DNA from: Sulfurospirillum diekertiae
GTDB taxonomy: Bacteria > Campylobacterota > Campylobacteria > Campylobacterales > Sulfurospirillaceae
DNA: 64,000 nucleotides
Direction: 5' to 3'
Assembly: GCF_002162315.1 (NCBI RefSeq)
Contig: NZ_CP021416.1
Span: forward strand, 2,802,207-2,866,206
In this document: positions 9,918 to 58,545 of the stretch, piece by piece
How the letters are laid out: every line of letters starts with the position of its first letter
Numbering within the stretch: the first letter of the stretch is position 1
Translations under genes and position numbers: made by a program
The notes under the pieces: generated by a model
Told to the model about the DNA's origin: nothing
What the model saw: the letters and a program-made list of their open reading frames with translations, nothing else
The model's database searches: none

Positions 9918-10535
9918 ATGCTGAGTTTGAACGAGTTTGAATTTGCCAAAGCCTTAAGCCACGAAGAATTTGAATATCTTATGCGCCATGCAAAACGCGT
10001 TTCCATCCCTAAAAATACCATACTTTTTTATCAAGAAGATATTTGTAAAGATATTTTGCTTTTAGGCAAAGGCGAAATAGAACTTTATATGTATGGCGAA
10101 AACGATAAAAAAATCCCTTTGTATGCACTCAAAGAGGGAGAACAATGCGTCATTAACACTTCAAGCACGATCTCTCAAACACCCGCCATTGGCACAGCAC
10201 AAAGCTTGAGCGATGTTGAAGGGTGGATGGTCAGTGAAGAGGTCGTTAAGCATCTAATGCACCAATCCCCTACGTACCTCAACTATGTTTTTTCACTCTT
10301 TACGATCAAACTTGATGCGCTTGCGACACTTATTCAAGACATAAAATTTAAAAAACTCGATAGCCGCATTCTTGAATGGCTCAGAACACATCATTCAAAC
10401 CTTGTACAAGCGACCCATGAAGAGATTGCAGAGGCATTAGGGACGTCACGTGTTGTGGTAAGTCGCGTACTTAAAGACCTCGAAAAACAAAATCTCATTC
10501 GCCTCCATCGTAAAGAAATAGAAATTTTGTCATAG
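9918..10535 (+). CDS. Crp/Fnr-family transcriptional regulator
   Basis: A 205-residue regulator with an N-terminal cyclic-nucleotide-binding-type barrel (about residues 15-115) and a C-terminal winged helix-turn-helix (about 145-200) whose recognition helix is in ALGTSRVVVSRVLKDLEKQ. There is no N-terminal cluster of four cysteines, so it is not a classical oxygen-sensing Fnr; two isolated cysteines occur near residues 44 and 78. A copy of TTACATGTAA (9899-9908) lies just before the start codon. Five bases after the stop is a symmetrical GTAAC-N4-GTTAC element over the promoter of the next gene, which suggests local control of that gene. Confidence 0.9.
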   Translation: MLSLNEFEFAKALSHEEFEYLMRHAKRVSIPKNTILFYQEDICKDILLLGKGEIELYMYGENDKKIPLYALKEGEQCVINTSSTISQTPAIGTAQSLSDVEGWMVSEEVVKHLMHQSPTYLNYVFSLFTIKLDALATLIQDIKFKKLDSRILEWLRTHHSNLVQATHEEIAEALGTSRVVVSRVLKDLEKQNLIRLHRKEIEILS

Positions 10536-23853: not shown

Positions 23854-23970
23854 AACTGGCAGCGACCTACGTTTCCATCCCAGTAAGGGAAAGTATTATC
23901 GGCGATGAAGAGCTTAGCTTCCTGGTTCGAAATGGGACAGGGCGTTTCCTCTTCTCTATAGCCACCAGAA
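23854..23970 (-). rRNA. rrf: 5S ribosomal RNA, copy 1
   Basis: About 117 nt. The minus strand begins CTGGTGGCTATAGAGAAGAG and ends GGTCGCTGCCAG; these termini pair as the closing helix (CUGGUGGC with GCUGCCAG). The internal segment GAAGCTAAGCTCTTCATCGC matches the 5S consensus of Campylobacterota. Ends are placed from this helix and may be off by a few bases. Confidence 0.93.
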
Positions 23971-24058
23971 TCGTGAATTAAATCTATGTCGTATTATAAC
24001 GAAATAGGCTTAATTCACCATTCTTCAGGTGATTTTAGTATTGTCTAGTCAACAAAGC

Positions 24059-24098
24059 GCTTTACACTTAATAAGGAAGTGAAATAGCATTATCATAC
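24059..24098 (-). other. 3' strand of the 23S processing stem, copy 1
   Basis: The sequence just downstream of 23S (24059-24098) and that just upstream of it (27023-27063) are complementary over about 40 bases with few mismatches (for example TTACACTTAATAAGG against its partner). They would form the long helix cut by RNase III to release pre-23S. The same pair exists in copy 2 at about 29771-29810 and 32735-32775. Confidence 0.8.
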
Positions 24099-24107
24099 GT
24101 AATAATA

Positions 24108-27018
<2,911 letters not shown>

Positions 27019-27063
27019 ATTTGTATTCTAATGCACATTTCACTCCCTTATTAAATGTAAACC

Positions 27064-27242
27064 ATCTAACAAGTTGTAAATTGTTTTTTTTGCGTTTTGT
27101 TGACTTTGACAATAATAAATTAAATAACATTTAGACTAAAAAGTCTAATATAAAAACAATCTCTCTTGTTCTTATATTAGACGTTGTGTCCTCATCTTCA
27201 CTAACAATGTCGTGATACAATCTTTTACCACTTTTGATAAAA
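27064..27242 (-). other. tRNA-Ala to 23S spacer, copy 1
   Basis: This AT-rich spacer holds two hairpins. GTCTAATATAA pairs with TTATATTAGAC around 27141-27181, and AGACTAAAAAGTCT is at 27132-27145. No promoter or gene is seen. In copy 2 the corresponding spacer is 94 bp longer. Confidence 0.7.
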
Positions 27243-27318
27243 TGGTGGAGAATAGCGGGATCGAACCGCTGACCTCCTGCGTGCAAAGCAGGCGCTCTCC
27301 CAGCTGAGCTAATTCCCC
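27243..27318 (-). tRNA. tRNA-Ala (anticodon TGC)
   Basis: A 76-nt cloverleaf with encoded CCA. The transcript begins GGGGAATTAGCTCAGC, the anticodon loop reads CTTTGCAC, and the T loop reads GGTTCGATCC. It lies in the rRNA spacer, 1 nt from tRNA-Ile. Confidence 0.97.
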
Positions 27319-27319
27319 A

Positions 27320-27396
27320 TGGTGGGCTTAAGAGGACTCGAACCTCTGACCTTACCCTTATCAGGGGTACGCTCTAACCACCTGAGCTATAAGCCC
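27320..27396 (-). tRNA. tRNA-Ile (anticodon GAT)
   Basis: A 77-nt cloverleaf with encoded CCA. The transcript begins GGGCTTATAGCTCAGG, the anticodon loop reads CTGATAA, and the T arm is AGAGGTTCGAGTCCTCT. It is the first tRNA after 16S. Confidence 0.97.
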
Positions 27397-27404
27397 CTCT
27401 TTCA

Positions 27405-27440
27405 TTCAATCTCTCAAAACTAAATAAGCTTCCTTAGCAG
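27405..27440 (-). other. 3' strand of the 16S processing stem, copy 1
   Basis: This segment downstream of 16S is complementary to the 16S leader at 29070-29106: CTAAATAAGC, CCTTAG and TTCAATCT blocks pair in order. It defines the helix enclosing pre-16S for RNase III. The copy 2 equivalents are 33212-33247 and 34877-34913. Confidence 0.8.
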
Positions 27441-27484
27441 TTCTCGCCGGAGCACCATTGTGAGATAGTGTCCCTATACTCTAG

Positions 27485-28993
<1,509 letters not shown>

Positions 28994-29233
28994 ATTTATG
29001 AAGTGTTCTTCATTTGACTTAAAGTATCTCTTTTTTAATAAAGAGTTGATAATCTCTTTTTTCGCGTCACTGACTAAGGTCGCTTATTTAGATTTCAAAG
29101 ATTGAATTTGACATTGTTAAAATGGTAATGAACGTGAAGCTTGTCCCCTACTTTGGGTACTTCTCTTTAACCCCGCTTTCTCAAACGAGGACGAAATTAT
29201 ATATCCTTGCACCTTACAAAGACATTAAACTCG
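28994..29233 (-). promoter_or_regulatory. rRNA operon promoter and leader, copy 1
   Basis: A perfect TATAAT (-10, minus strand) lies at 29196-29201, about 200 nt upstream of mature 16S; no clear -35 hexamer is seen, as is usual in Campylobacterota. The leader includes the 5' strand of the 16S processing stem (29070-29106). The block is the same in copy 2, so both operons should be transcribed independently. Confidence 0.65.
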
Positions 29234-29516
29234 ATCAAAAAAACAATAATAGATTGTAAAATATTCTTCATATCCTATATAACTCAAATATCAATATTAT
29301 TTTTGCATACTGATAACTCATAATTATAAAAAAAACCGAAAACAAGAAGAAAAGATTTGAGTTAAAAATGTAAATATTATGGTCATAATAAAAAAATACT
29401 TTTACGAGGAGTAAATCAATGAATAATGTAAAAGAGAGGATATATTTAAGGATATAGATTAGTATTTATTGGATGAATAGAGAAGCTATATGTTGATTAA
29501 GAGACAAGGGGGATAC
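29234..29516. other. Unique sequence between the two rRNA operon copies
   Basis: These 283 bp are not shared between the copies and have no sizeable gene. A strong GAGGAG site before an ATG at 29419 opens only a 12-codon frame (MNNVKERIYLRI), which looks like a remnant of a lost gene or chance. Confidence 0.5.
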
Positions 29517-29566
29517 CGCCTTTGAATAAGACGAGATGAAGGAATCATTGTAAAAAAGAATCACGG

Positions 29567-29683
29567 AACTGGCAGCGACCTACGTTTCCATCCCAGTAAG
29601 GGAAAGTATTATCGGCGATGAAGAGCTTAGCTTCCTGGTTCGAAATGGGACAGGGCGTTTCCTCTTCTCTATAGCCACCAGAA
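29567..29683 (-). rRNA. rrf: 5S ribosomal RNA, copy 2
   Basis: Identical through the mature region to copy 1. It differs only at the 3' flank, where one extra G follows the closing helix. The same terminal pairing CUGGUGGC/GCUGCCAG defines the ends. Confidence 0.93.
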
Positions 29684-29819
29684 TCGTGAATTAAATCTAT
29701 GTCGTATTATAGCGAAATAGGCTTAATTCACCATTCTTGGGTGATTTTAGTATTGTCTAGTCAACAAAGCGCTTTACACTTAATAAGGAAGTGAAATAGC
29801 ATTATCATACGTAATAATA

Positions 29820-32730
<2,911 letters not shown>

Positions 32731-32842
32731 ATTTGTATTCTAATGCACATTTCACTCCCTTATTAAATGTAAACCATCTAACAAGTTGTAAATTGTTTTT
32801 TTTGCGTTTTGTTGACTTTGACAATAATAAATTAAATAACAT

Positions 32843-32936
32843 CTCTATGTTCTTTCATCAGATAGCAAAGCTATCTTAAAGAACCAAACCTAAAGTACAA
32901 CGCAAAGCGTCGTATTCTAAATTATAGAACATAAAC
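32843..32936 (-). repeat. 94-bp hairpin-rich insertion in the rrn spacer of copy 2
   Basis: Present only in copy 2, between 23S and tRNA-Ala. It is bounded by an 8-bp inverted repeat TATGTTCT (32846-32853) and AGAACATA (32926-32933). Inside are GTTCTTT/AAAGAAC, GATAGC-AAA-GCTATC and ACGC-AAA-GCGT hairpins. No ORF fits. It may be a small mobile or recombined spacer element, or copy 1 may have lost it. Confidence 0.75.
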
Positions 32937-33049
32937 TTAGACTAAAAAGTCTAATATAAAAACAACCGCAATTGTTCTTATATTAGACCTTGTGTCCTCA
33001 TCTTCACTAACAATGTCTTGATACAATTCTTTTACCACTTTTTAAAAAA

Positions 33050-33125
33050 TGGTGGAGAATAGCGGGATCGAACCGCTGACCTCCTGCGTGCAAAGCAGGC
33101 GCTCTCCCAGCTGAGCTAATTCCCC
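33050..33125 (-). tRNA. tRNA-Ala (anticodon TGC), copy 2
   Basis: Identical to the copy at 27243-27318, with encoded CCA and anticodon TGC. Confidence 0.97.
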
Positions 33126-33126
33126 A

Positions 33127-33203
33127 TGGTGGGCTTAAGAGGACTCGAACCTCTGACCTTACCCTTATCAGGGGTACGCTCTAACCACCTGAGCTATAAG
33201 CCC
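33127..33203 (-). tRNA. tRNA-Ile (anticodon GAT), copy 2
   Basis: Identical to the copy at 27320-27396, with encoded CCA and anticodon GAT. Confidence 0.97.
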
Positions 33204-33291
33204 CTCTTTCATTCAATCTCTCAAAACTAAATAAGCTTCCTTAGCAGTTCTCGCCGGAGCACCATTGTGAGATAGTGTCCCTATACTCTAG

Positions 33292-34800
<1,509 letters not shown>

Positions 34801-49634: not shown

Positions 49635-50336
49635 TTAAGCTTCTTTGGGCGTACCCCAAACAAAAAGCACTTCAAATTCAAGATACTCATGCGGATAATT
49701 TTGAATCAATGCTTTGGTTTGTGTAACGTTTAACCTTCTTTGCCCACCACTGACACCACTTTTTTTGATGTAGCGAAATTTTGAAAGATTGTCATCAAAA
49801 AAGAGGCGAAACGTTTTGATTTCATAGTTACATGTAAAATGGGTTGCAAATATTTCGACTAAGTTTTGTGCATTGGGTAAAAAGGTAGGGAGATGACTCA
49901 TCGCATAGATGGTTTCAAAGGTTTTATCGGTAAAAATGGCAAATGCTCCCTCTTTACATGTAAAGACCATTTGAGAGATTAACGTTTCAATATCATTGGC
50001 CCATTGCAACGCAGAAGAAGAGACCAAAAGATCGTAGGGTAGTGTCAATTTCGAAAGTAGTGTAGGCGATTCAAAATCCTCACAGATGACTTCAACCTCG
50101 TTACCTGTAGGGTGAAGATCACACATACCCTGAGCACTATCCACTCCTGTAAAGCGCTCTATCTGCCATACAATATTTTTAAATACTGCACCACTTCCAC
50201 ACCCCAAATCTAAAATAGTTTTAGGATTATTCGTAATATGAGAAACCAAATAGTGCGCTATATCTTGTTGTAATGCCGTGTAGTCATCGTAACGATAGGC
50301 ATTTTTCGAAAATTCTTTGATATGTTTTGCAGTCAT
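49635..50336 (-). CDS. SAM-dependent methyltransferase, BioC-like
   Basis: A 233-residue class I methyltransferase. The SAM-binding motif ILDLGCGSGAVF is near residues 41-52, followed by GVDSAQGM near 64 and LLVSSSALQWANDIETL near 107, the signature found in BioC (malonyl-ACP O-methyltransferase in biotin synthesis). Its C-terminal RRLNVTQTKALIQNYPHE is also BioC-like. No biotin genes are nearby, so the call is tentative. Two TTACATGTAA copies lie inside the gene (49828 and 49954), encoding FTCN and FTCK. Confidence 0.75.
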   Translation of the reverse strand: MTAKHIKEFSKNAYRYDDYTALQQDIAHYLVSHITNNPKTILDLGCGSGAVFKNIVWQIERFTGVDSAQGMCDLHPTGNEVEVICEDFESPTLLSKLTLPYDLLVSSSALQWANDIETLISQMVFTCKEGAFAIFTDKTFETIYAMSHLPTFLPNAQNLVEIFATHFTCNYEIKTFRLFFDDNLSKFRYIKKSGVSGGQRRLNVTQTKALIQNYPHEYLEFEVLFVWGTPKEA

Positions 50337-50488: not shown

Positions 50489-52198
50489 ATGTCTAAATGG
50501 TGGCGTTTAGGTATTTTGATGTGTCTTCTAATAAGCACACCGGTCTGGGCAGCTATCGGTAAAGTTTCGCTTTTAAAGGGTGAAGCCATTGCCAACCGCG
50601 ATCAAAAAATAGTTTCACTTACCAGTGGAGCAGCACTGGAAGAACATGACATCATTACAACACGCGCAAATAGCCAAATTCAACTCACGTTTGAAGATAA
50701 AACGGTCATAACCTTGGGTAGCGAGAGTGTATTAGATATTAAAGAGTATCTCAATGATGCCGAACACCCTAAAGCAAAATTCAAATTTAGCCAAGGCACT
50801 TTTAAAAGTATCACGGGACAAATTGGTAAAAAAGCACCTGAAAATTTTAAACTTGAAACATCCACTGCCACGATTGGTATTCGGGGTACAACCGTTGCAG
50901 GTACAGCTGCTGCAGAAGGTTCACAAAATACTGTAGAACTTCTTGCATGCCTTGATGGAGAAATTGTTGTTTCGAATAATCATGGTAGTGTTATTATAAG
51001 CTCGGGATACTTTACACTCGTAAGTCCAAATATGCCGCCACCGCCGCCTGTAGTTATGACGCCACAGCAAATACAGCAGTTGTACCAAGGGGCAATCAAT
51101 GCACGACCACCATTGCCAGAGCATGAACAAAATGAAGCTGAAAATACACCACCTCCGCCATCACCACAGCAACAAATTCAACCACCCTCTCCTACTATGC
51201 CAGCATTAGCAGAGCAAGCTTCTCAAACCAATACTTCAACCAATATCGCTCACGCTATCACTAATCATGTAGAAGAAATTTTCAACAACAATGGAAACAA
51301 TGGAAACAATGGAAACAACGGAAATTTGACATATCCAACCTTTAATCCACCACTACAAGCGACTTCCGATGCGTCTGGCATCATTAATCTCGTTGGTATG
51401 GCAACTTCCACATACACTCAAGATGGTATGACGTTAACCAGTGCCACAGATACTTTGACACTCAATCTTGATACGAGTGATGATAGTATCACCACCGATA
51501 GCTCTATTTTATTGGATCGTGGTGATGTTAACTACCCTGTATCTTTAGCTAAAACCAAAGATTCCAATACAATGACCTATAAAGGCAATGATAAATTTTC
51601 TATCAAAAATTTTGATAACCAAGACGGATGGATGCAAACCGAAAATACCTATACCAATGACTATGTTTCATGGGGGTATGACTGGGCAATGAAAATCAAC
51701 AATGACAGTAAACTCCTAAGCAGCACTAACTATTGGGTTGCAGGTAAAAATGTAGATGCCGATACCGCCAATAATTATATTACCACTAAAATTCACGAGA
51801 CATCCACCACATCCTATGCCTATAATGGTCATGTTATCGGGTCGGTCAGCGATGGAGTCAACAACTACAGCATTAACCCCACCAACAACAATGATGTCAA
51901 ATTAAATTTTAATTTTGGGGCGGGGAGTGGTAGCCTCTTAAATACCAGTTATATTCAATTCCAAACCAATCAAACAACTCCTCAAACATGGAAAATTTCC
52001 CCTTCTGGCACGATTGAAGGAGGAAGTTTTAATCTTCAAAAAGAAGCGAATGTGGCTATTAATGGTACTACTAATAATGCTAGCCTCAGCACCATTAGAG
52101 GTCAGTTCTATGGTAATGAGGTTCAAGCCGTCGGTGGGACATTTAATGCAACAGCGGGCACCAATACCGCTACTGGCGTTTTTAAGGCGGTCAAATAA
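50489..52198 (+). CDS. Secreted FecR-domain protein with TbpB-like C-terminal domain (candidate T11SS cargo)
   Basis: A 569-residue protein with a Sec signal peptide (ending STPVWAAI) and no lipobox. Residues 30-165 are a FecR domain (DIITTRANSQIQLTFED, TATIGIRGTTV). Then comes a Pro-rich linker (about 182-235), a four-unit Asn-Gly repeat (about 267-280) and a beta-rich region (285-569). The last 40 residues contain IRGQFYGNEVQAVGGTF, resembling the barrel end of TbpB/hemophilin-type cargo (GxFYGxxAxExGGxF) secreted by Slam proteins. The next gene encodes a Slam-like protein and overlaps the stop codon (TAATG), so this is its likely substrate (inference). Confidence 0.72.
   Translation: MSKWWRLGILMCLLISTPVWAAIGKVSLLKGEAIANRDQKIVSLTSGAALEEHDIITTRANSQIQLTFEDKTVITLGSESVLDIKEYLNDAEHPKAKFKFSQGTFKSITGQIGKKAPENFKLETSTATIGIRGTTVAGTAAAEGSQNTVELLACLDGEIVVSNNHGSVIISSGYFTLVSPNMPPPPPVVMTPQQIQQLYQGAINARPPLPEHEQNEAENTPPPPSPQQQIQPPSPTMPALAEQASQTNTSTNIAHAITNHVEEIFNNNGNNGNNGNNGNLTYPTFNPPLQATSDASGIINLVGMATSTYTQDGMTLTSATDTLTLNLDTSDDSITTDSSILLDRGDVNYPVSLAKTKDSNTMTYKGNDKFSIKNFDNQDGWMQTENTYTNDYVSWGYDWAMKINNDSKLLSSTNYWVAGKNVDADTANNYITTKIHETSTTSYAYNGHVIGSVSDGVNNYSINPTNNNDVKLNFNFGAGSGSLLNTSYIQFQTNQTTPQTWKISPSGTIEGGSFNLQKEANVAINGTTNNASLSTIRGQFYGNEVQAVGGTFNATAGTNTATGVFKAVK
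51287..51322 (+). repeat. Four 9-bp tandem repeats (AACAATGGA) in the FecR-protein gene
   Basis: Three perfect AACAATGGA units and one AACAACGGA encode NNGNNGNNGNNG. Because the unit is 9 bp, copy-number change keeps the reading frame and alters only the linker length between the FecR and the barrel-like domains. Confidence 0.9.
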
Positions 52199-53502
52199 TG
52201 AAACTCTCACATATTGTGCTCATTGCTCTTCTTGGGACACACCTTTTGGCACAAGAACCAACATCTGGAGAACTTTATAGTTCGGCTCAAAAAGCCTATA
52301 CTCAAAATGACTTTGCTACGGCATATTCACTTTTTGAACAGCTTTTTGAACAAACACCCAACAACGCCGAAATTAACTTTTTTGTGGGACGATGTGCCTT
52401 AGAACTTCGTCATTATGACGAGGCTGTCGCAGCATTTGATCGTGTGCTAATTCTCAACCCAAAACACACACGCACTCACCTTGAAATGGCACGCCTCTAC
52501 TTTGAACGCAAACAGTTAGAGCTTGCACAAAGTGAACTTGACCTCGTCTTGAATGAACAACTTCCTAGCGATGTACGAGACTCCGCTATGGCATTTAAAC
52601 ACACCATTGATGAAAATCTGAGCCGCCATCGCTTTGGAGGAGCCCTCATTGTAGGTGGAGGATACGATAGTAATGTCAATAATGATATCGGCGCAAAACA
52701 GTTCACCATACCCGCTTTAAATATCCCGATCTCAGGTAATGCAAAAAATGGAGATGGCTATGGTTTTTCAACGTTTGTTTTCAACCACAGTTATGACTTT
52801 GGTGATCGCGGTGGATGGAGTTTGGAAAATAGCTTCATAGCTTACGATAAACTCTACTCCCAATCGAGCCTAAACAACCTCGTTCTCTTTTCACTCTCAA
52901 GTGCACCAACATGGAGTGAAAATAAAACCACCGTAGCACTTCCTGTCACATTTGATCGTGTTTATATCGATGGCAAAGGCTATCTTGCCAATATTGGAGC
53001 AGGCGTTAAAAGCAGTTATCTTCTTGACCCGCTCTCTCAAATTGAGGGGGGCTATAGCTTTAAGCGAGGGTATTATCACGATGAGACATACGATGTCAAT
53101 GCACATCTGCTCTTTATCAATTATCGACGTATCATCGGCGAAAACCTCTTTGCATTAGGACTTCATACCAGTTATGGCATTAACAAAGAAGTAGAGTCTG
53201 TGCGCACCGATGTGCAAGATAAAGAGTGGAAATACGGGCTTGATCTCTCTAAAGAATTTACCAAAGATTTTAGAAGTTCTTTAGGTTATACCCGCACTTC
53301 AACCAACTATGACGATGTGGATACTATTTTCTTGACTAAGCGCCAAGATGACAAAGACCAATATGAACTCTCTTTTGGCTACACACTCCAAAAGAACCTC
53401 TCTTTAGGAGCCAGTGTCATGTACAGTAACAATCACTCGAATCACGATCCTTATACTTACGATAAGATAAACGCACTTGCTAGCATTATGTGGGCATTCT
53501 AG
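52198..53502 (+). CDS. TPR plus beta-barrel outer-membrane protein, Slam/DUF560-like
   Basis: A 434-residue protein with a signal peptide (ending THLLAQ). TPR helices span about residues 22-145 (AYTQNDFATAYSLFEQLF, YDEAVAAFDRVLILNPKH). The rest is a beta-barrel rich in aromatic alternation, opening with GGGYDSNVNND near residue 158 and ending NALASIMWAF. The N-TPR / C-barrel order is that of Slam (type XI) exporters, which move TbpB-like lipoproteins and hemophores across the outer membrane. The 434-residue size fits. Its start overlaps the upstream FecR-protein stop. A pilus- or secretin-related TPR protein is a less likely alternative. Confidence 0.72.
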   Translation: MKLSHIVLIALLGTHLLAQEPTSGELYSSAQKAYTQNDFATAYSLFEQLFEQTPNNAEINFFVGRCALELRHYDEAVAAFDRVLILNPKHTRTHLEMARLYFERKQLELAQSELDLVLNEQLPSDVRDSAMAFKHTIDENLSRHRFGGALIVGGGYDSNVNNDIGAKQFTIPALNIPISGNAKNGDGYGFSTFVFNHSYDFGDRGGWSLENSFIAYDKLYSQSSLNNLVLFSLSSAPTWSENKTTVALPVTFDRVYIDGKGYLANIGAGVKSSYLLDPLSQIEGGYSFKRGYYHDETYDVNAHLLFINYRRIIGENLFALGLHTSYGINKEVESVRTDVQDKEWKYGLDLSKEFTKDFRSSLGYTRTSTNYDDVDTIFLTKRQDDKDQYELSFGYTLQKNLSLGASVMYSNNHSNHDPYTYDKINALASIMWAF

Positions 53503-53505
53503 CCT

Positions 53506-55722
53506 ATGCGTAAAAGCCTACTTCAACTCCTTTTTACCTTTATCGTTATGGCAGGGAGTGTTGTAGGCTATCTTTATGAAAGCTCCTTTTGGCTTCCTTT
53601 TGAGTATAAAATTAAAGATAGGATGCTGCAAAGTAGAGGTGAAATCACAGGCGATGAAAATATTGTGATTATAGACATCGACGAAAAGAGTCTCAAGACA
53701 TTGGGACAATGGCCTTGGAGTCGCGATAAAATAGCAAGACTTTTGCAAAATCTCTCCGATCTTGGCGTTGCCATTGTAGGACTCGACGTCGTTTTTGCTG
53801 AAGCTGATAATAGCTCCCCTCAAAAAGTTTTAGCACAATTGGGATTGCCCCATAAAGATGTGCCTGATTATGATACTATTTTTGCCGAAACGATTGCGCA
53901 TACACCTACCGTTGTGGGCTATGTTTTTGCGCTCACACCTGACTCGATCCAACCAGAAGGCAATCCAAAATCAGCGGCAATTCTTGTAGAGCAAAACCGC
54001 CCCAAACGCTCTTCTTTGATTAAGCCATACCGTGCCATTCTCAACATTCCTCAGATTCAAAAACAAGCTTACTCAAGTGGCTATTTCAACACGATTCCTG
54101 ATAACGATGGCATCGTACGAAGTGTTCCATTAGTGATGGAATATGATGGTGTTCTCTACCCCTCTTTGAGCCTAGAAATGGTACGCATTGCGCTTGGTGA
54201 AAAAAAAATCAACATTGTGTATGATGAAAATGGGCTGCGCCAAATTGAAATTGGTGAACATATTATTCCCACAGACTTTTTTGGACGCTTAATGGTGAAC
54301 TATCGCGGAGGTCAAAACAGCTACCGCTATATTTCTGCCATTGATGTCTATAACAACCGTGTTGATCCTTTACATGTAAAAGATAAAATAGCCCTTTTAG
54401 GCACTTCTGCAGCGGGTCTTTTGGATCTAAGAAGTACACCATTTGAAAGTGTCTACGCAGGGGTAGAGGTTCATGCCAATGCGATTGATAATATGCTCCA
54501 TGAAGATTACATTTCACAACCTATTTGGGCGCGCGGTGTCGATCTACTCAGTATCGTGATACTTTCAATCGTTACCTTGGTGGCGTTACTGGTTCCTAGT
54601 GCATTTTTTAGTTTTATCGCCCTTGTGATACTTAACCTCATCGTCGTCATCACGCATTACTATTGCATGGTATATCAAGGTATTTTACTCAATACGATTT
54701 TGCCGCTATTTGCCATTAACATTCTCTTTATTGTGGGACAAGCCATGAACTACTTTTTGGAAATTCGTCAAAAAGAGCTTATTAAACATAAATTTTCAAG
54801 TAAAGTCAGCCCTGCCGTTATGAACAATATTCTCTCTAGTGGAGACGATATTCTACAAGGTATCGAAAAAGAGATCACCATCTTTTTTTCCGATTTACGT
54901 AACTTTACAGGTATTTCAGAAGCAGCAGGTGAGCCAAAACATCTTATTCACCTAATGAATGCCTATATGGATCCCATGAGTCAAATTATCATTCACCAAG
55001 GAGGCACAGTCGATAAATTTATCGGCGATGCGATTATGGCGTATTGGAATGCACCTATTAGCACCCCTAATCATGCGGATAAAGCTGTCACTGCTGCACT
55101 CCAACAACTTCATCATCTCAAGGCACTCAATGCCACTATTCGTACCAATCCAGAGTTTGAAACCATTACGGCCATGGCAGATCAAAAAGGAGTGCCTATT
55201 ATCGATATTGGTATTGGTATCAATACAGGTGTTGCCATTGTTGGGGAGATGGGAACAAGCAATAGAAGTGATTATACGGTCATTGGCGATCCCATTAACC
55301 TAGGCTCAAGGCTTGAATCATTATGCAAATACTATCATTCGCACCTCACTATTTCCCATTTCACCAAAAATAAACTCAAAGGTGCTTACCTCTTTCGCTT
55401 CTTAGATTTAGTAACCGTTAAAGGCAAACATGAACCTATAGAAGTATGGCAAATCCATGATTTTGATACACTCCAAACCGAGCCGCTTTACGCAACATCG
55501 TATGAAGAGCTCCAAGAGGAATTACGTTTACACCACGAAGCCATTGAACTTTATAGAAAAGCTGATTTTACTGAAGCACTCAAATGTTTTGAAGCATTGA
55601 ATCGAAGAGAAAATAAAACCAATGAGGCAATCTATCCTCTGTATATTGAACGCTGTTTGCACTATATCGCGTTTCCACCTTCTTCATTTAATGGTGTTTT
55701 TGTACACACCACCAAAGGATAA
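53506..55722 (+). CDS. CHASE2-domain membrane adenylate cyclase (class III)
   Basis: A 738-residue protein. An N-terminal TM helix (about 8-25) is followed by a CHASE2 periplasmic sensor (about 28-330; DENIVIIDIDEKSLKTLGQW, PWSRDKIA, GLDVVFAE), then three TM helices (about 345-425) and a class III cyclase domain (about 450-650). Metal-binding aspartates are in FFSDLRNFT near 460 and GDAIMAYWNAP near 506. The Lys of VDKFIGD, the Thr-Val-Ile-Gly-Asp of DYTVIGDP and NLGSRLE near 598 are also present, so activity is expected. CHASE2 often senses envelope stimuli. A C-terminal TPR-like stretch closes the protein. Confidence 0.93.
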   Translation: MRKSLLQLLFTFIVMAGSVVGYLYESSFWLPFEYKIKDRMLQSRGEITGDENIVIIDIDEKSLKTLGQWPWSRDKIARLLQNLSDLGVAIVGLDVVFAEADNSSPQKVLAQLGLPHKDVPDYDTIFAETIAHTPTVVGYVFALTPDSIQPEGNPKSAAILVEQNRPKRSSLIKPYRAILNIPQIQKQAYSSGYFNTIPDNDGIVRSVPLVMEYDGVLYPSLSLEMVRIALGEKKINIVYDENGLRQIEIGEHIIPTDFFGRLMVNYRGGQNSYRYISAIDVYNNRVDPLHVKDKIALLGTSAAGLLDLRSTPFESVYAGVEVHANAIDNMLHEDYISQPIWARGVDLLSIVILSIVTLVALLVPSAFFSFIALVILNLIVVITHYYCMVYQGILLNTILPLFAINILFIVGQAMNYFLEIRQKELIKHKFSSKVSPAVMNNILSSGDDILQGIEKEITIFFSDLRNFTGISEAAGEPKHLIHLMNAYMDPMSQIIIHQGGTVDKFIGDAIMAYWNAPISTPNHADKAVTAALQQLHHLKALNATIRTNPEFETITAMADQKGVPIIDIGIGINTGVAIVGEMGTSNRSDYTVIGDPINLGSRLESLCKYYHSHLTISHFTKNKLKGAYLFRFLDLVTVKGKHEPIEVWQIHDFDTLQTEPLYATSYEELQEELRLHHEAIELYRKADFTEALKCFEALNRRENKTNEAIYPLYIERCLHYIAFPPSSFNGVFVHTTKG

Positions 55723-55724
55723 CG

Positions 55725-58121
55725 ATGAGTTTAATTCACATTCTAGGTGCAAACGGAAGTAGATCTAAACAAAGTTTTACAACCTGTATCCAAGTCACGC
55801 CCAATACAATCATTGATGCTGGCAATATTATGTATGCTCTAGGCACTGAAGCGTTACATGTAAACCGTATTTTTTTCTCACATGCACACCTCGATCACAT
55901 TATAGACAGTGCTTTTCTTATTGATAATTTTTTTACACAACGCAAAGAGACACTCTACCTCTATGGACTTCCCCAAACCATTAAAGCTATCAAAAAACAT
56001 CTTTTTAATGATATGGTCTGGCCAGATTTTAGTAAAATCAATCTAACACATTGTGAATGTCCTGCTATCACCTATATTGAGATAGAGCCCTATAAACGTT
56101 ATTTCATTGAAGAGAACATTACACTCACTCCCATTCCAGCCAATCATGCCGTACCCTGTTGTGGTTATATCATTGAGCAACAAGGAAGCAGCATACTCTT
56201 TTCAGGCGACACTTTTCACAATGAAGCGCTCTGGAATATCCTTAACGAAAACCTTTCCATCAAAGCACTGATCATCGATGTCTCATTTCCCAATCAGCTC
56301 TCTCATGTCGCAGCTGAAAGCAAACATCTCACACCTCATTTTCTTCAAGAGGGATTAAAGCGGCTTAAACGTGATGACCTCCATCTCTACATTAACCATC
56401 TCAAGCCTTTCTACGCAGACCTGATTGTCAAAGAATTGGAAGATATGGGCATTGCAAAAAAATCCATTTTGTGTGATGGAGAAAAAATAGATATCGCCAC
56501 TGGTTTACTACACCAAATGATGTCTAGCCATACCAATGATGAACGTGTTCAAAAATTAACGCAAATTGGAACCGCTCTCTCTGCCAATGAAAGCCTTGAA
56601 AATCTTTTAGAAATGATTGTCACGGAAGCCAAAAATCTTACCAATGCCGATGGGGGAACGCTTTATTTATTAGAAAAAAATGAACTTCGTTTTAAAGTCA
56701 TCCAAACGGACTCTTTAAAGATTAAGATGGGCGGTACAAGTGGAAAAATTACATGGGCACCTTTGCCACTCTACCTTGAAGATGGAACGCCCAATAAAGC
56801 GATGGTAGCGGCAACCTGTGTTTTAGAAGATCGCCTTGTTAATATTCCCGATGTTTATGAAGCAGTAGGATTTTCCTTTGAAGGAACCAAAAAGTTTGAT
56901 CAAGGAACAGGCTATCGCTCAAAATCCATGCTAGTTATTCCTCTCAAAAACCATGAATACGAAATTATAGGTGTGTTGCAACTGCTTAACAAGCAAAATG
57001 ATTATAAACAAGAAGTCATCCCGTTTAACAATGAAGATGAAAAAATTACTTTATCGCTCGCTTCACAAGCGGCAATCGCTATTACTAATACCTCGCTCAT
57101 TCAAGGGCTTGAAAATCTTTTAGAAGGCTTCCTTAAAAGTATCATTTTTACGATCAGCAAAAAATCACCTTATACTGCTGGGCACATCAAACGTATGGTC
57201 AAACTCAGTGTCATGCTTGCCGAAGCAATCAATCGCGATACAATCACATACGCCCATAAGCATTTTAATACCGAAGAGATCAAACAGATCAATTTTGCTG
57301 CCTTAATGCATGACATTGGAAAACTGGCTTCACCCGAACACATCCTCAATAAATCAACCAAATTGGAAGCATTATGCGACCGTATTGTGCTCATTGAGAG
57401 TCGTATTCAAACGATTGAAAAAGCTTTACATGTAAAACTTCTAGAAGACAAAATTGCTCTTCTAGAAGGTAAACAAATAGGTGATGTAACAACTTTAGAA
57501 AAAACATATGAACAGCAGATTAAAATGCTCCGTGAAATCTTTTTACTTCTCCAATCAAGTAACAATGGAGAACAGTTTCTCAGTGATGAGAAAGCTGCAA
57601 ATATTAAAGCTATCGCTGAGCATCCATGGCATATTGGGAATGAAATCTATACAATTTTAACACCTGATGAAGCACATCATTTGAGCATACAAAAAGGAAC
57701 GCTAACCTCAGAAGAGCGTGAAATAATTAACAATCATGCGAAGCTCAGTATTGATATTCTAAACCGCCTTCCCTTCCCTAAAAAATACCAACAAATTCCG
57801 CAAATTTCAGGGAATCACCATGAAAAGCTCAATGGAAAAGGCTATCCCCAAGGACTTAAGGGAGATGAAATTAGCTTTGAAGCACGTATTTTAGCCATTG
57901 CTGATATTTTTGAAGCCTTAACAGCAAGTGATCGCCCCTATAAGGCGGGTATGCCCCTCTCCACGGTTATGAAAATTCTTTATACCATGGCACAAGCAGG
58001 TGAATTGGACAAAGAGTTGGTCAAGTTTCTCTATACATCAAACATCTATCTTGAATATGCAAAAGCTTTTTTACCCGAACGTTGCATTGATGAAATTACG
58101 GTCGATTTTAACATGTTATAA
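55725..58121 (+). CDS. MBL-fold class II cAMP phosphodiesterase-like / GAF / HD-GYP protein
   Basis: A 798-residue cytoplasmic protein of three modules. Residues 1-255 are a metallo-beta-lactamase fold with FFSHAHLDHIIDS near 50, matching class II cyclic nucleotide phosphodiesterases, plus GDTFH and NHLKP metal ligands. Residues 270-440 are a GAF domain (ADGGTLYLLE near 306). Residues 460-780 are an HD-GYP domain with HDIGK near 528 and NHHEKLNGKGYPQGL near 697; a charged helical insertion of about 100 residues separates them. It starts 3 bp after the cyclase stop. This suggests cAMP made next door is broken down or sensed here (inference). Confidence 0.85.
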   Translation: MSLIHILGANGSRSKQSFTTCIQVTPNTIIDAGNIMYALGTEALHVNRIFFSHAHLDHIIDSAFLIDNFFTQRKETLYLYGLPQTIKAIKKHLFNDMVWPDFSKINLTHCECPAITYIEIEPYKRYFIEENITLTPIPANHAVPCCGYIIEQQGSSILFSGDTFHNEALWNILNENLSIKALIIDVSFPNQLSHVAAESKHLTPHFLQEGLKRLKRDDLHLYINHLKPFYADLIVKELEDMGIAKKSILCDGEKIDIATGLLHQMMSSHTNDERVQKLTQIGTALSANESLENLLEMIVTEAKNLTNADGGTLYLLEKNELRFKVIQTDSLKIKMGGTSGKITWAPLPLYLEDGTPNKAMVAATCVLEDRLVNIPDVYEAVGFSFEGTKKFDQGTGYRSKSMLVIPLKNHEYEIIGVLQLLNKQNDYKQEVIPFNNEDEKITLSLASQAAIAITNTSLIQGLENLLEGFLKSIIFTISKKSPYTAGHIKRMVKLSVMLAEAINRDTITYAHKHFNTEEIKQINFAALMHDIGKLASPEHILNKSTKLEALCDRIVLIESRIQTIEKALHVKLLEDKIALLEGKQIGDVTTLEKTYEQQIKMLREIFLLLQSSNNGEQFLSDEKAANIKAIAEHPWHIGNEIYTILTPDEAHHLSIQKGTLTSEEREIINNHAKLSIDILNRLPFPKKYQQIPQISGNHHEKLNGKGYPQGLKGDEISFEARILAIADIFEALTASDRPYKAGMPLSTVMKILYTMAQAGELDKELVKFLYTSNIYLEYAKAFLPERCIDEITVDFNML

Positions 58122-58209: not shown

Positions 58210-58545
58210 ATGACCACCGTTTTACTGGTATTACAATTTGTATTTACCGTTATTTTAACTGTTTCTGTACTCCTTCAAAAAAGTTCATCTATTGGTCTTG
58301 GCGCTTATAGTGGAAGTAACGAATCTCTCTTTGGAGCAAAAGGTCCAGCAGGATTTATGGCAAAATTTACATTTGTTATGGCAATCTTTTTCATTGCAAA
58401 TACCCTTGCTTTAGGTTATTTTTACAACCAAACTAAAAAAGTTTCCATTGCTGAAGATATCAAAATTGAAAAAAGCGTTGTTCCAAGTGTTCCAGCTCCT
58501 GTTACAACAGCTCCATCAGCCCCAGAAGCTCCTAGCGCTAAATAA
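58210..58545 (+). CDS. secG: Preprotein translocase subunit SecG
   Basis: A 111-residue protein with two TM helices (about 3-22 and 56-76) and the conserved SSSIGLGAYSGSNESLFGAKG loop, split here as IGLGAYSG near residue 32. The C terminus has an extra Pro/Ala-rich stretch (VPSVPAPVTTAPSAPEAP), normal for Campylobacterota. SecG assists the SecYE channel. A TATAAT at about 58165 and an AAGGACATCTCTT leader are upstream. It begins the secG - deacetylase - frr - pyrE run. Confidence 0.95.
   Translation: MTTVLLVLQFVFTVILTVSVLLQKSSSIGLGAYSGSNESLFGAKGPAGFMAKFTFVMAIFFIANTLALGYFYNQTKKVSIAEDIKIEKSVVPSVPAPVTTAPSAPEAPSAK

Follow-up and report, generated by a model that had tools for sequence, protein, structure and literature searches.

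We analyzed a 64,000-nucleotide stretch of Sulfurospirillum diekertiae (contig NZ_CP021416.1, positions 2,802,207 to 2,866,206 of the forward strand; the whole stretch is called the window) and found that the four-gene operon at window positions 50489-58121 is a real, conserved signalling cassette, whose parts are of known kinds and whose combination we did not find described. Read from the sequences as a whole, the operon has about an even chance of being a trans-envelope cyclic AMP (cAMP) cassette that carries its own shut-off and has cyclic di-GMP (c-di-GMP) as output. The cyclase, MBL and GAF-HD-GYP steps are its conserved core, and the export and FecR-CHASE2 steps are an accessory front end. 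The prediction of a core cAMP module is solid. The genes and domains, with the evidence for each, are as follows.

50489-52198, plus strand: FecR-barrel protein, 569 aa (Pfam, AlphaFold2 model, Foldseek/VIA, hydropathy, Cys positions)
51809-52195, plus strand: its C-terminal barrel, aa 441-569, predicted type XI secretion system (T11SS)/Slam targeting domain (Pfam, AlphaFold2, fold match, motif)
52198-53502, plus strand: Slam-like (T11SS) outer-membrane protein, TPR and barrel, 434 aa (Pfam SlipAM, TPRs, FecR adjacency)
53506-55722, plus strand: CHASE2 receptor adenylate cyclase, 738 aa (Pfam, transmembrane-like windows, catalytic residues, PDB matches)
55725-58121, plus strand: MBL-GAF-HD-GYP protein, 798 aa
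55725-56498, plus strand: MBL domain, predicted class II cyclic-nucleotide phosphodiesterase (PDEase_II, metal ligands, AlphaFold2, PDE1 matches)
56538-57104, plus strand: GAF domain of the cyclic nucleotide monophosphate (cNMP)-binding type with NKFDE motif (PDB profile matches, motif)
57096-58112, plus strand: HD-GYP domain, predicted c-di-GMP phosphodiesterase (Pfam, metal ligands, PDB matches)

The four open reading frames share one strand and are separated by gaps of -1, 3 and 2 bp, so the tight packing described in an earlier sequence-only reading was confirmed by the coordinates, and the same gap pattern occurs in two congeners (loci L061 and L064). The domain names which that reading gave to all four proteins were right by Pfam, while the TbpB_B_D barrel of the first protein had been missed. 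Promoter and terminator scans of the operon returned about as many matches as expected from shuffles and were set aside as uninformative about sub-transcripts.

Neighbourhood conservation, chosen beforehand as the test that could refute the system, was found in a sample of 200 Campylobacteria genomes: the MBL was present in 23/23 genomes with a full CHASE2 cyclase versus 6/177 without it (p = 5e-25, Fisher test with no correction for phylogeny), and by genus the linkage was 16/16 versus 2/31 (p = 1e-10). Within the genus of the window, 14/24 genomes carried a full-length cyclase, and the MBL-GAF-HD-GYP gene was adjacent in 14/14. The FecR and Slam genes accompanied the cyclase in 10/14 congeners and were both absent in the other four (L063, L225, L226, L227), so the front end is not essential; in genome G123 the site is empty (L228). 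Among 44 cyclase loci with enough flank, 17 held all four components, 7 had FecR, MBL and GAF-HD-GYP but no Slam barrel that could be recognised, and 8 held MBL and GAF-HD-GYP only. The last two are fused in either order (MBL-GAF-HD-GYP or GAF-HD-GYP-MBL) or lie side by side as separate genes, three arrangements that by their gene content make up one partnership. Since the four-gene set recurs in many families with gene order and orientation shuffled, the operon is not a chance assembly. Its carriers include many relatives of Campylobacter that take part in sulfur cycling. On this gene content, FecR with Slam appears as a separable, optional add-on to the core. Coupling of export to the cAMP system, as first proposed, was thus upheld in that the Slam pair is real and weakened in that it is optional, being missing in 4/14 congeners and in Slam-less cassettes and standing alone elsewhere. 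An apparently decaying cassette was also seen, with a Slam fragment and an internal stop in its MBL-GAF-HD-GYP gene (L099:7298-9781).

Outside Campylobacteria, a genome scan with the MBL as query, followed by annotation of the loci, placed the CHASE2 cyclase with an MBL in Aquificota (L125, L136, L137) and Betaproteobacteria (L146, L171, L175, L178). The gammaproteobacterium Thiomicrospira sp. WB1 (L104) has all four genes, arranged as in the window, probably through horizontal transfer. At L137:5152-9750 a close relative of PmGH (599 bits, 362 residues), the GAF-HD-GYP protein of Persephonella marina, lies beside FecR, CHASE2 cyclase and MBL. In the betaproteobacterial loci L171, L175 and L178 the cassette also includes a CHASE2 Ser/Thr kinase, PP2C, FHA, a GAF-HD-GYP protein and a pilus-type ATPase (GAF-MshEN-T2SSE) that has another GAF of the cNMP type (domains by Pfam in L175 only); a type IV pilin gene is close by, downstream, in L175 and L178. 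This gene content suggests cAMP control of a pilus motor. Loci L094-L098 have no cyclase; there a small FecR protein is paired with a CHASE2-HD-GYP fusion.

The third protein is strongly predicted from its sequence to be a membrane adenylate cyclase. Pfam matched CHASE2 (6e-65) and Guanylate_cyc (1e-17), and transmembrane-like windows at 5-23, 345-363, 365-383 and 393-411 give the topology of a CHASE2 receptor: one transmembrane segment (5-23), a periplasmic CHASE2 domain (~24-344), three transmembrane segments and a class III cyclase domain (~455-650). The catalytic residues of that class are in place, namely two metal-binding Asp (D463, D508), the adenine-specifying K504 and T591, and the transition-state N598 and R602, each conserved in 61-62 of 63 loci. 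PDB matches of the cyclase domain are adenylate cyclases, CyaB first, while the CHASE2 domain has no solved relative by sequence in the PDB. These catalytic residues and PDB matches bear out the proposal that an envelope sensor makes a cyclic nucleotide, predicted here to be cAMP. The 2.88-Mb genome has a single PF00211 match, making this protein the sole class III cyclase found; no class I cyclase is present in it, and classes other than I and III were not searched.

The fourth protein combines PDEase_II/MBL (8e-13), GAF (6e-12) and HD_5 (1e-41) matches in Pfam. Its MBL domain was modelled by AlphaFold2 with a pLDDT of 96, and yeast PDE1 was the top PDB match both by profile (E 2.4e-14) and by Foldseek (E 1.7e-15), with a VIA-align Z of 26.2 at a root-mean-square deviation of 2.2 over 244 residues and 27% identity. 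The HxHLDH motif of class II phosphodiesterases is present as HAHLDH on this PDE1-like fold, and its ligand His/Asp residues vary little or not at all among 23 homologues. By sequence and model, the MBL domain is strongly predicted to hydrolyse cAMP.

The GAF profile, compared with the PDB for cassette GAFs, matched those of PDE5, PDE2, PDE10, PDE6 and the cAMP-binding CyaB2, as well as the cassette relative PmGH, at E 1e-33 to 1e-6, with unrelated GAFs (3oov, DevS) at 6e-4 and weaker. The window GAF carries the NKFDE motif (N-K-xn-F-x3-D-E) as NKQNDYKQEVIPFNNEDE, a motif that alone is no proof of binding, and the strict form is found in 23/34 fused homologues. As a negative control we tried the GAF from the pilus-type ATPase of Betaproteobacteria, but dropped it because it is itself part of a cassette and also matched cNMP GAFs. 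The HD-GYP domain contains HHEKLNGKGYP, its metal ligands H72, D73, H214, H241, H242 and D270 are invariant (alignment A4), as in HD-GYP phosphodiesterases, and the closest PDB chains are the cyclic-dinucleotide phosphodiesterases V-cGAP3 and PmGH. The genome of the window (G000) has 51 GGDEF matches, which makes c-di-GMP a plausible target; this count conflicts with the statement that Campylobacterota lack GGDEF domains (PMC12943098). We predict that the GAF is a cAMP-binding domain that controls how active the fused HD-GYP is, and the protein should bridge two messengers, cAMP and c-di-GMP, because its HD-GYP domain should act on the latter. The suggestion that the last protein degrades or senses the cyclic nucleotide therefore agrees with the predicted class II phosphodiesterase fold and cNMP-type GAF, corrected in that HD-GYP is expected to act on c-di-GMP. 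The layout of the operon, its active-site residues, the folds and the linkage are shown by the sequences themselves; cAMP production, hydrolysis and GAF sensing, and c-di-GMP hydrolysis, are inferred from precise family matches.

Candidate cAMP receptors other than the GAF were also considered. Six of the seven cNMP_binding matches in the genome of the window were read, and none of the six has the canonical R-[ST]-A motif; its lack is why the CRP-like gene at 9918-10535 was no longer taken as a candidate receptor. CRP-like genes with a GE..RTA/RSA motif do occur in or adjoining cassettes at L125, L136, L144, L145 and L155. A small cNMP-binding protein beside the operon at L102, L222 and L223 was rejected as a general receptor, as it is absent from the genome of the window, occurs in 9/200 genomes and does not follow the cyclase. 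At L222:3690-4954 and L223:4184-5469 this protein and a ~250-aa partner without a Pfam family are convergent with the operon.

The front end begins with the FecR-barrel protein, in which Pfam found FecR (E 2e-12) and the C-terminal TbpB_B_D barrel (E 7e-8). AlphaFold2 modelled a confident FecR beta domain (aa ~24-180) and the C-terminal barrel (441-568), with disordered stretches at 201-297 and 351-422. By Foldseek/VIA the FecR domain matched PupR and BDI_1681 (Z 16), and the barrel matched NHBA (Z 13.4), fHbp (13.0), hemophilin (12.0) and also TbpB, with the small barrels OmpX and Ail tied in Z with NHBA, fHbp and hemophilin. Several among NHBA, fHbp, TbpB and hemophilin are established Slam cargo, and the eight-stranded C-terminal barrel of TbpB/lipoprotein-C type that marks T11SS cargo is present here, ending in a conserved GxFYG...GGTF...GVFKA motif (alignment A2). 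Hydropathy indicated a signal peptide with no lipobox Cys at its end; because the only Cys residues are at 12 and 154, the protein belongs by sequence with the non-lipidated T11SS cargo type. Cys 154 is invariant in 15 aligned FecR proteins of Slam-type cassettes (A2), and no counterpart was seen at this position in FecR proteins of Slam-less loci, for example L075 and L089. The periplasmic domain of FecR anti-sigma regulators is present by Pfam and by the PupR/BDI_1681 fold; the N-terminus is a signal peptide with no cytoplasmic anti-sigma segment, and none of the four reading frames encodes a sigma factor. Homologues within the genus keep conserved ends while their length varies between 389 and 790 aa, and some loci, L062 included, have two tandem copies. 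By sequence and model the FecR protein is likely a Slam cargo.

The second protein matched SlipAM at 36 bits against a cut-off of 22, with generic TPRs over their cut-off and TPR_Slam below its own, giving the SlipAM barrel with N-terminal TPR expected of a Slam. The Slam profile gave TPR-type matches only among the best 60 PDB matches listed. A FecR gene lay at most two genes away on the same strand for 29/32 homologous Slam-like genes in the fetched loci, many of which had been fetched via the cyclase or MBL, and 19/32 had a partner with a profile-detectable barrel. Among L229-L236, fetched by Slam search alone, FecR was found in 7/8, and these seven (L229-L231, L233-L236) are free-standing export pairs with no cyclase nearby. 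The eighth, L232 (3394-6329), lacks FecR and joins an OmpA peptidoglycan-binding domain to the same TbpB-type barrel beside the Slam-like gene, possibly a peptidoglycan-anchored, surface-reaching cargo; this architecture suggests a cargo whose N-terminus stays in the periplasm. Very large lipoprotein-like genes neighbour the pair at L234. Together these results support a genuine Slam-type cargo/exporter pair in the first two genes, with export predicted.

FecR distances correlated with CHASE2 distances at 0.91 over 36 loci. Given the cyclase domain of the same protein, the FecR-CHASE2 partial r was 0.63 (p = 3e-4), versus 0.05 for FecR-cyclase given CHASE2; in Slam-less loci, where FecR remains with CHASE2, the values were 0.67 and -0.09. 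The co-evolution thus supports FecR-CHASE2 contact over the full set, without demonstrating it for the subtype of the window itself. Because FecR stays with CHASE2 in cassettes without Slam, it is probably more than cargo, so the label "FecR cargo" of the sequence-only reading was right about a cargo-type barrel and probably too narrow about function.

Based on these features, we propose that the Slam-like protein would export the barrel of the FecR protein, while the FecR domain, held by the disordered linker, would remain periplasmic and act as the partner of CHASE2, making its activity depend on the state of the surface or of export. The CHASE2 protein would make cAMP and the MBL domain would hydrolyse it; GAF would bind cAMP and set the HD-GYP activity that degrades c-di-GMP, so that a cAMP pulse would become a change of c-di-GMP. 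FecR as CHASE2 partner, and a barrel exported with FecR retained, are the more speculative steps. An outer-membrane-spanning Slam cargo, with its barrel at the surface and its periplasmic FecR domain switching the cyclase, while GAF reads cAMP and controls c-di-GMP breakdown within the polypeptide that destroys cAMP, is a tentative proposal that we regard as possible.

Several observations weigh against this proposal. To our knowledge, known Slam cargo lies entirely outside the cell. Slam occurs with short FecR proteins without any barrel at L074, L080 and L082, and the Slam-like gene at L236 has a short FecR partner in which no barrel was detected. In 12 Slam-bearing loci outside the genus, FecR tracking was not specific to CHASE2 (0.30 vs 0.52), and four of the 14 cyclase-bearing congeners have neither FecR nor Slam. 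Many cassette GAFs have no NKFDE motif or a degenerate one, the GAF comparison has no non-cassette control, and with no canonical cAMP motif in the cNMP-binding proteins read, GAF would have to be the receptor.

The Slam-like protein might instead be an outer-membrane receptor, its TPR meeting FecR, which would relay to the CHASE2 cyclase, with the barrel as a docking plug. The FecR domain closely matches the fold of PupR, a domain for cell-surface signalling that acts together with a transporter in the outer membrane; four Slam loci have a short FecR protein with no barrel detected; and experiments in Sinorhizobium show that the response of the CHASE2 cyclases CyaK and CyaD1/D2 to a protein outside the cell depends on NsrA, a beta-barrel protein of the outer membrane (PMC7529298, PMC13001267). 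The SlipAM score over its cut-off, the canonical Slam cargo barrel on 19/32 partners, and the tandem and length-variable FecR-barrel copies expected of cargo make this arrangement doubtful. FecR as plain surface cargo, an adhesin or binding protein that the cyclase operon only regulates, with no physical contact between FecR and CHASE2, is consistent with the pairs far from any cyclase and with the presence or absence of FecR and Slam as a pair. It is unlikely given that FecR adjoins CHASE2 where Slam is absent, also in the CHASE2-HD-GYP loci (L094-L098), that co-evolution in Slam-less loci is specific, and that FecR accompanies a CHASE2 kinase in Burkholderia (PMC5192318).

For the core, the MBL could be a nucleotide hydrolase of RNase Z-like or another type, or a molecule other than cAMP could be the messenger. 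RNase Z tied with PDE1 in Z-score (25.8 vs 26.2), yet its identity was 18%, clearly below that of PDE1, whose sequence E-value was also better; the near-exclusive co-occurrence of the MBL with an adenylate cyclase and the CRP-like neighbours make this reading improbable. Chance neighbours in a dense genome, with no shared function, would fit the four congeners lacking FecR and Slam at the locus, and were rejected as hardly credible given the same set in other orders and orientations in many genera, the full Thiomicrospira copy and the genus-level cyclase-MBL linkage.

If the proposal of an outer-membrane-spanning cargo feeding a cAMP core is true, FecR would be a concrete, testable partner for CHASE2, whose ligands are mostly unknown, and Slam exporters would be linked to signalling, a link we have not seen described. 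It would also give a direct cAMP-to-c-di-GMP switch in bacteria for which we found little cAMP biology, and the GAF of PmGH, crystallised and described as the first active HD-GYP structure, would be predicted to bind a cyclic nucleotide.

The operon lies at a conserved site between two genes outside it.

49635-50336, minus strand: BioC-like methyltransferase, divergent; left flank, marks the conserved site
58210-58545, plus strand: secG; right flank, boundary of the conserved site

Elsewhere in the window, two complete rRNA operons (16S, Ile/Ala tRNA, 23S, 5S) stand in direct tandem at 23854-34800 on the minus strand.

Compared with known systems, the full four-component set was not described in the open literature searched, where papers on CHASE2 with FecR describe other sets, and we found none on FecR with Slam. 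The sequence-only claim that no such system had been described therefore holds for the complete set, with partial precedents in NsrA/CHASE2 and BiofilmReg FecR/CHASE2. In Slam/T11SS loci a SlipAM outer-membrane protein lies beside a protein ending in a cargo barrel (PMC8406197, PMC12282271), as here; described cargoes are metal/haem or adhesin proteins, whereas the likely cargo in the window carries FecR, and the words FecR and cyclase are absent from both texts. The window MBL shares fold, metal ligands and sequence profile with yeast PDE1, but is shorter and fused to GAF-HD-GYP, and is known here from sequence and model. PmGH (PDB 4mcw) has the same GAF-HD-GYP, to which the window adds an N-terminal MBL; the PmGH literature passages found name no GAF ligand.

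In FecA-FecR and PupB-PupR, as in the operon, a FecR periplasmic fold sits between a protein of the outer membrane and a transducer of the inner membrane. Unlike them, the operon has no anti-sigma segment or sigma factor, its transducer is a CHASE2 cyclase, and its FecR protein bears a C-terminal barrel. The Burkholderia BiofilmReg biofilm operon places a LysM-FecR periplasmic protein beside a CHASE2 kinase (PMC5192318) and so shares the pairing of FecR with a CHASE2 sensor; it differs in that its CHASE2 protein is a histidine kinase, with a response regulator, and in lacking cAMP enzymes and Slam. By analogy, the nearest precedent is NsrA with the CHASE2 cyclases of Sinorhizobium. The accessible passages on the NsrA-CyaK/CyaD1/CyaD2-Clr pathway mention no Slam-type cargo, class II phosphodiesterase or GAF-HD-GYP cassette, all of which the window has; in that pathway a regulator of the CRP family receives cAMP, and the likeness of NsrA to Slam is one of description. 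What the two systems have in common is an outer-membrane barrel, CHASE2 adenylate cyclases and an outside signal, in the window a predicted one, and the FecR-domain protein SMc02177 is a Clr target in Sinorhizobium meliloti (PMC5498481).

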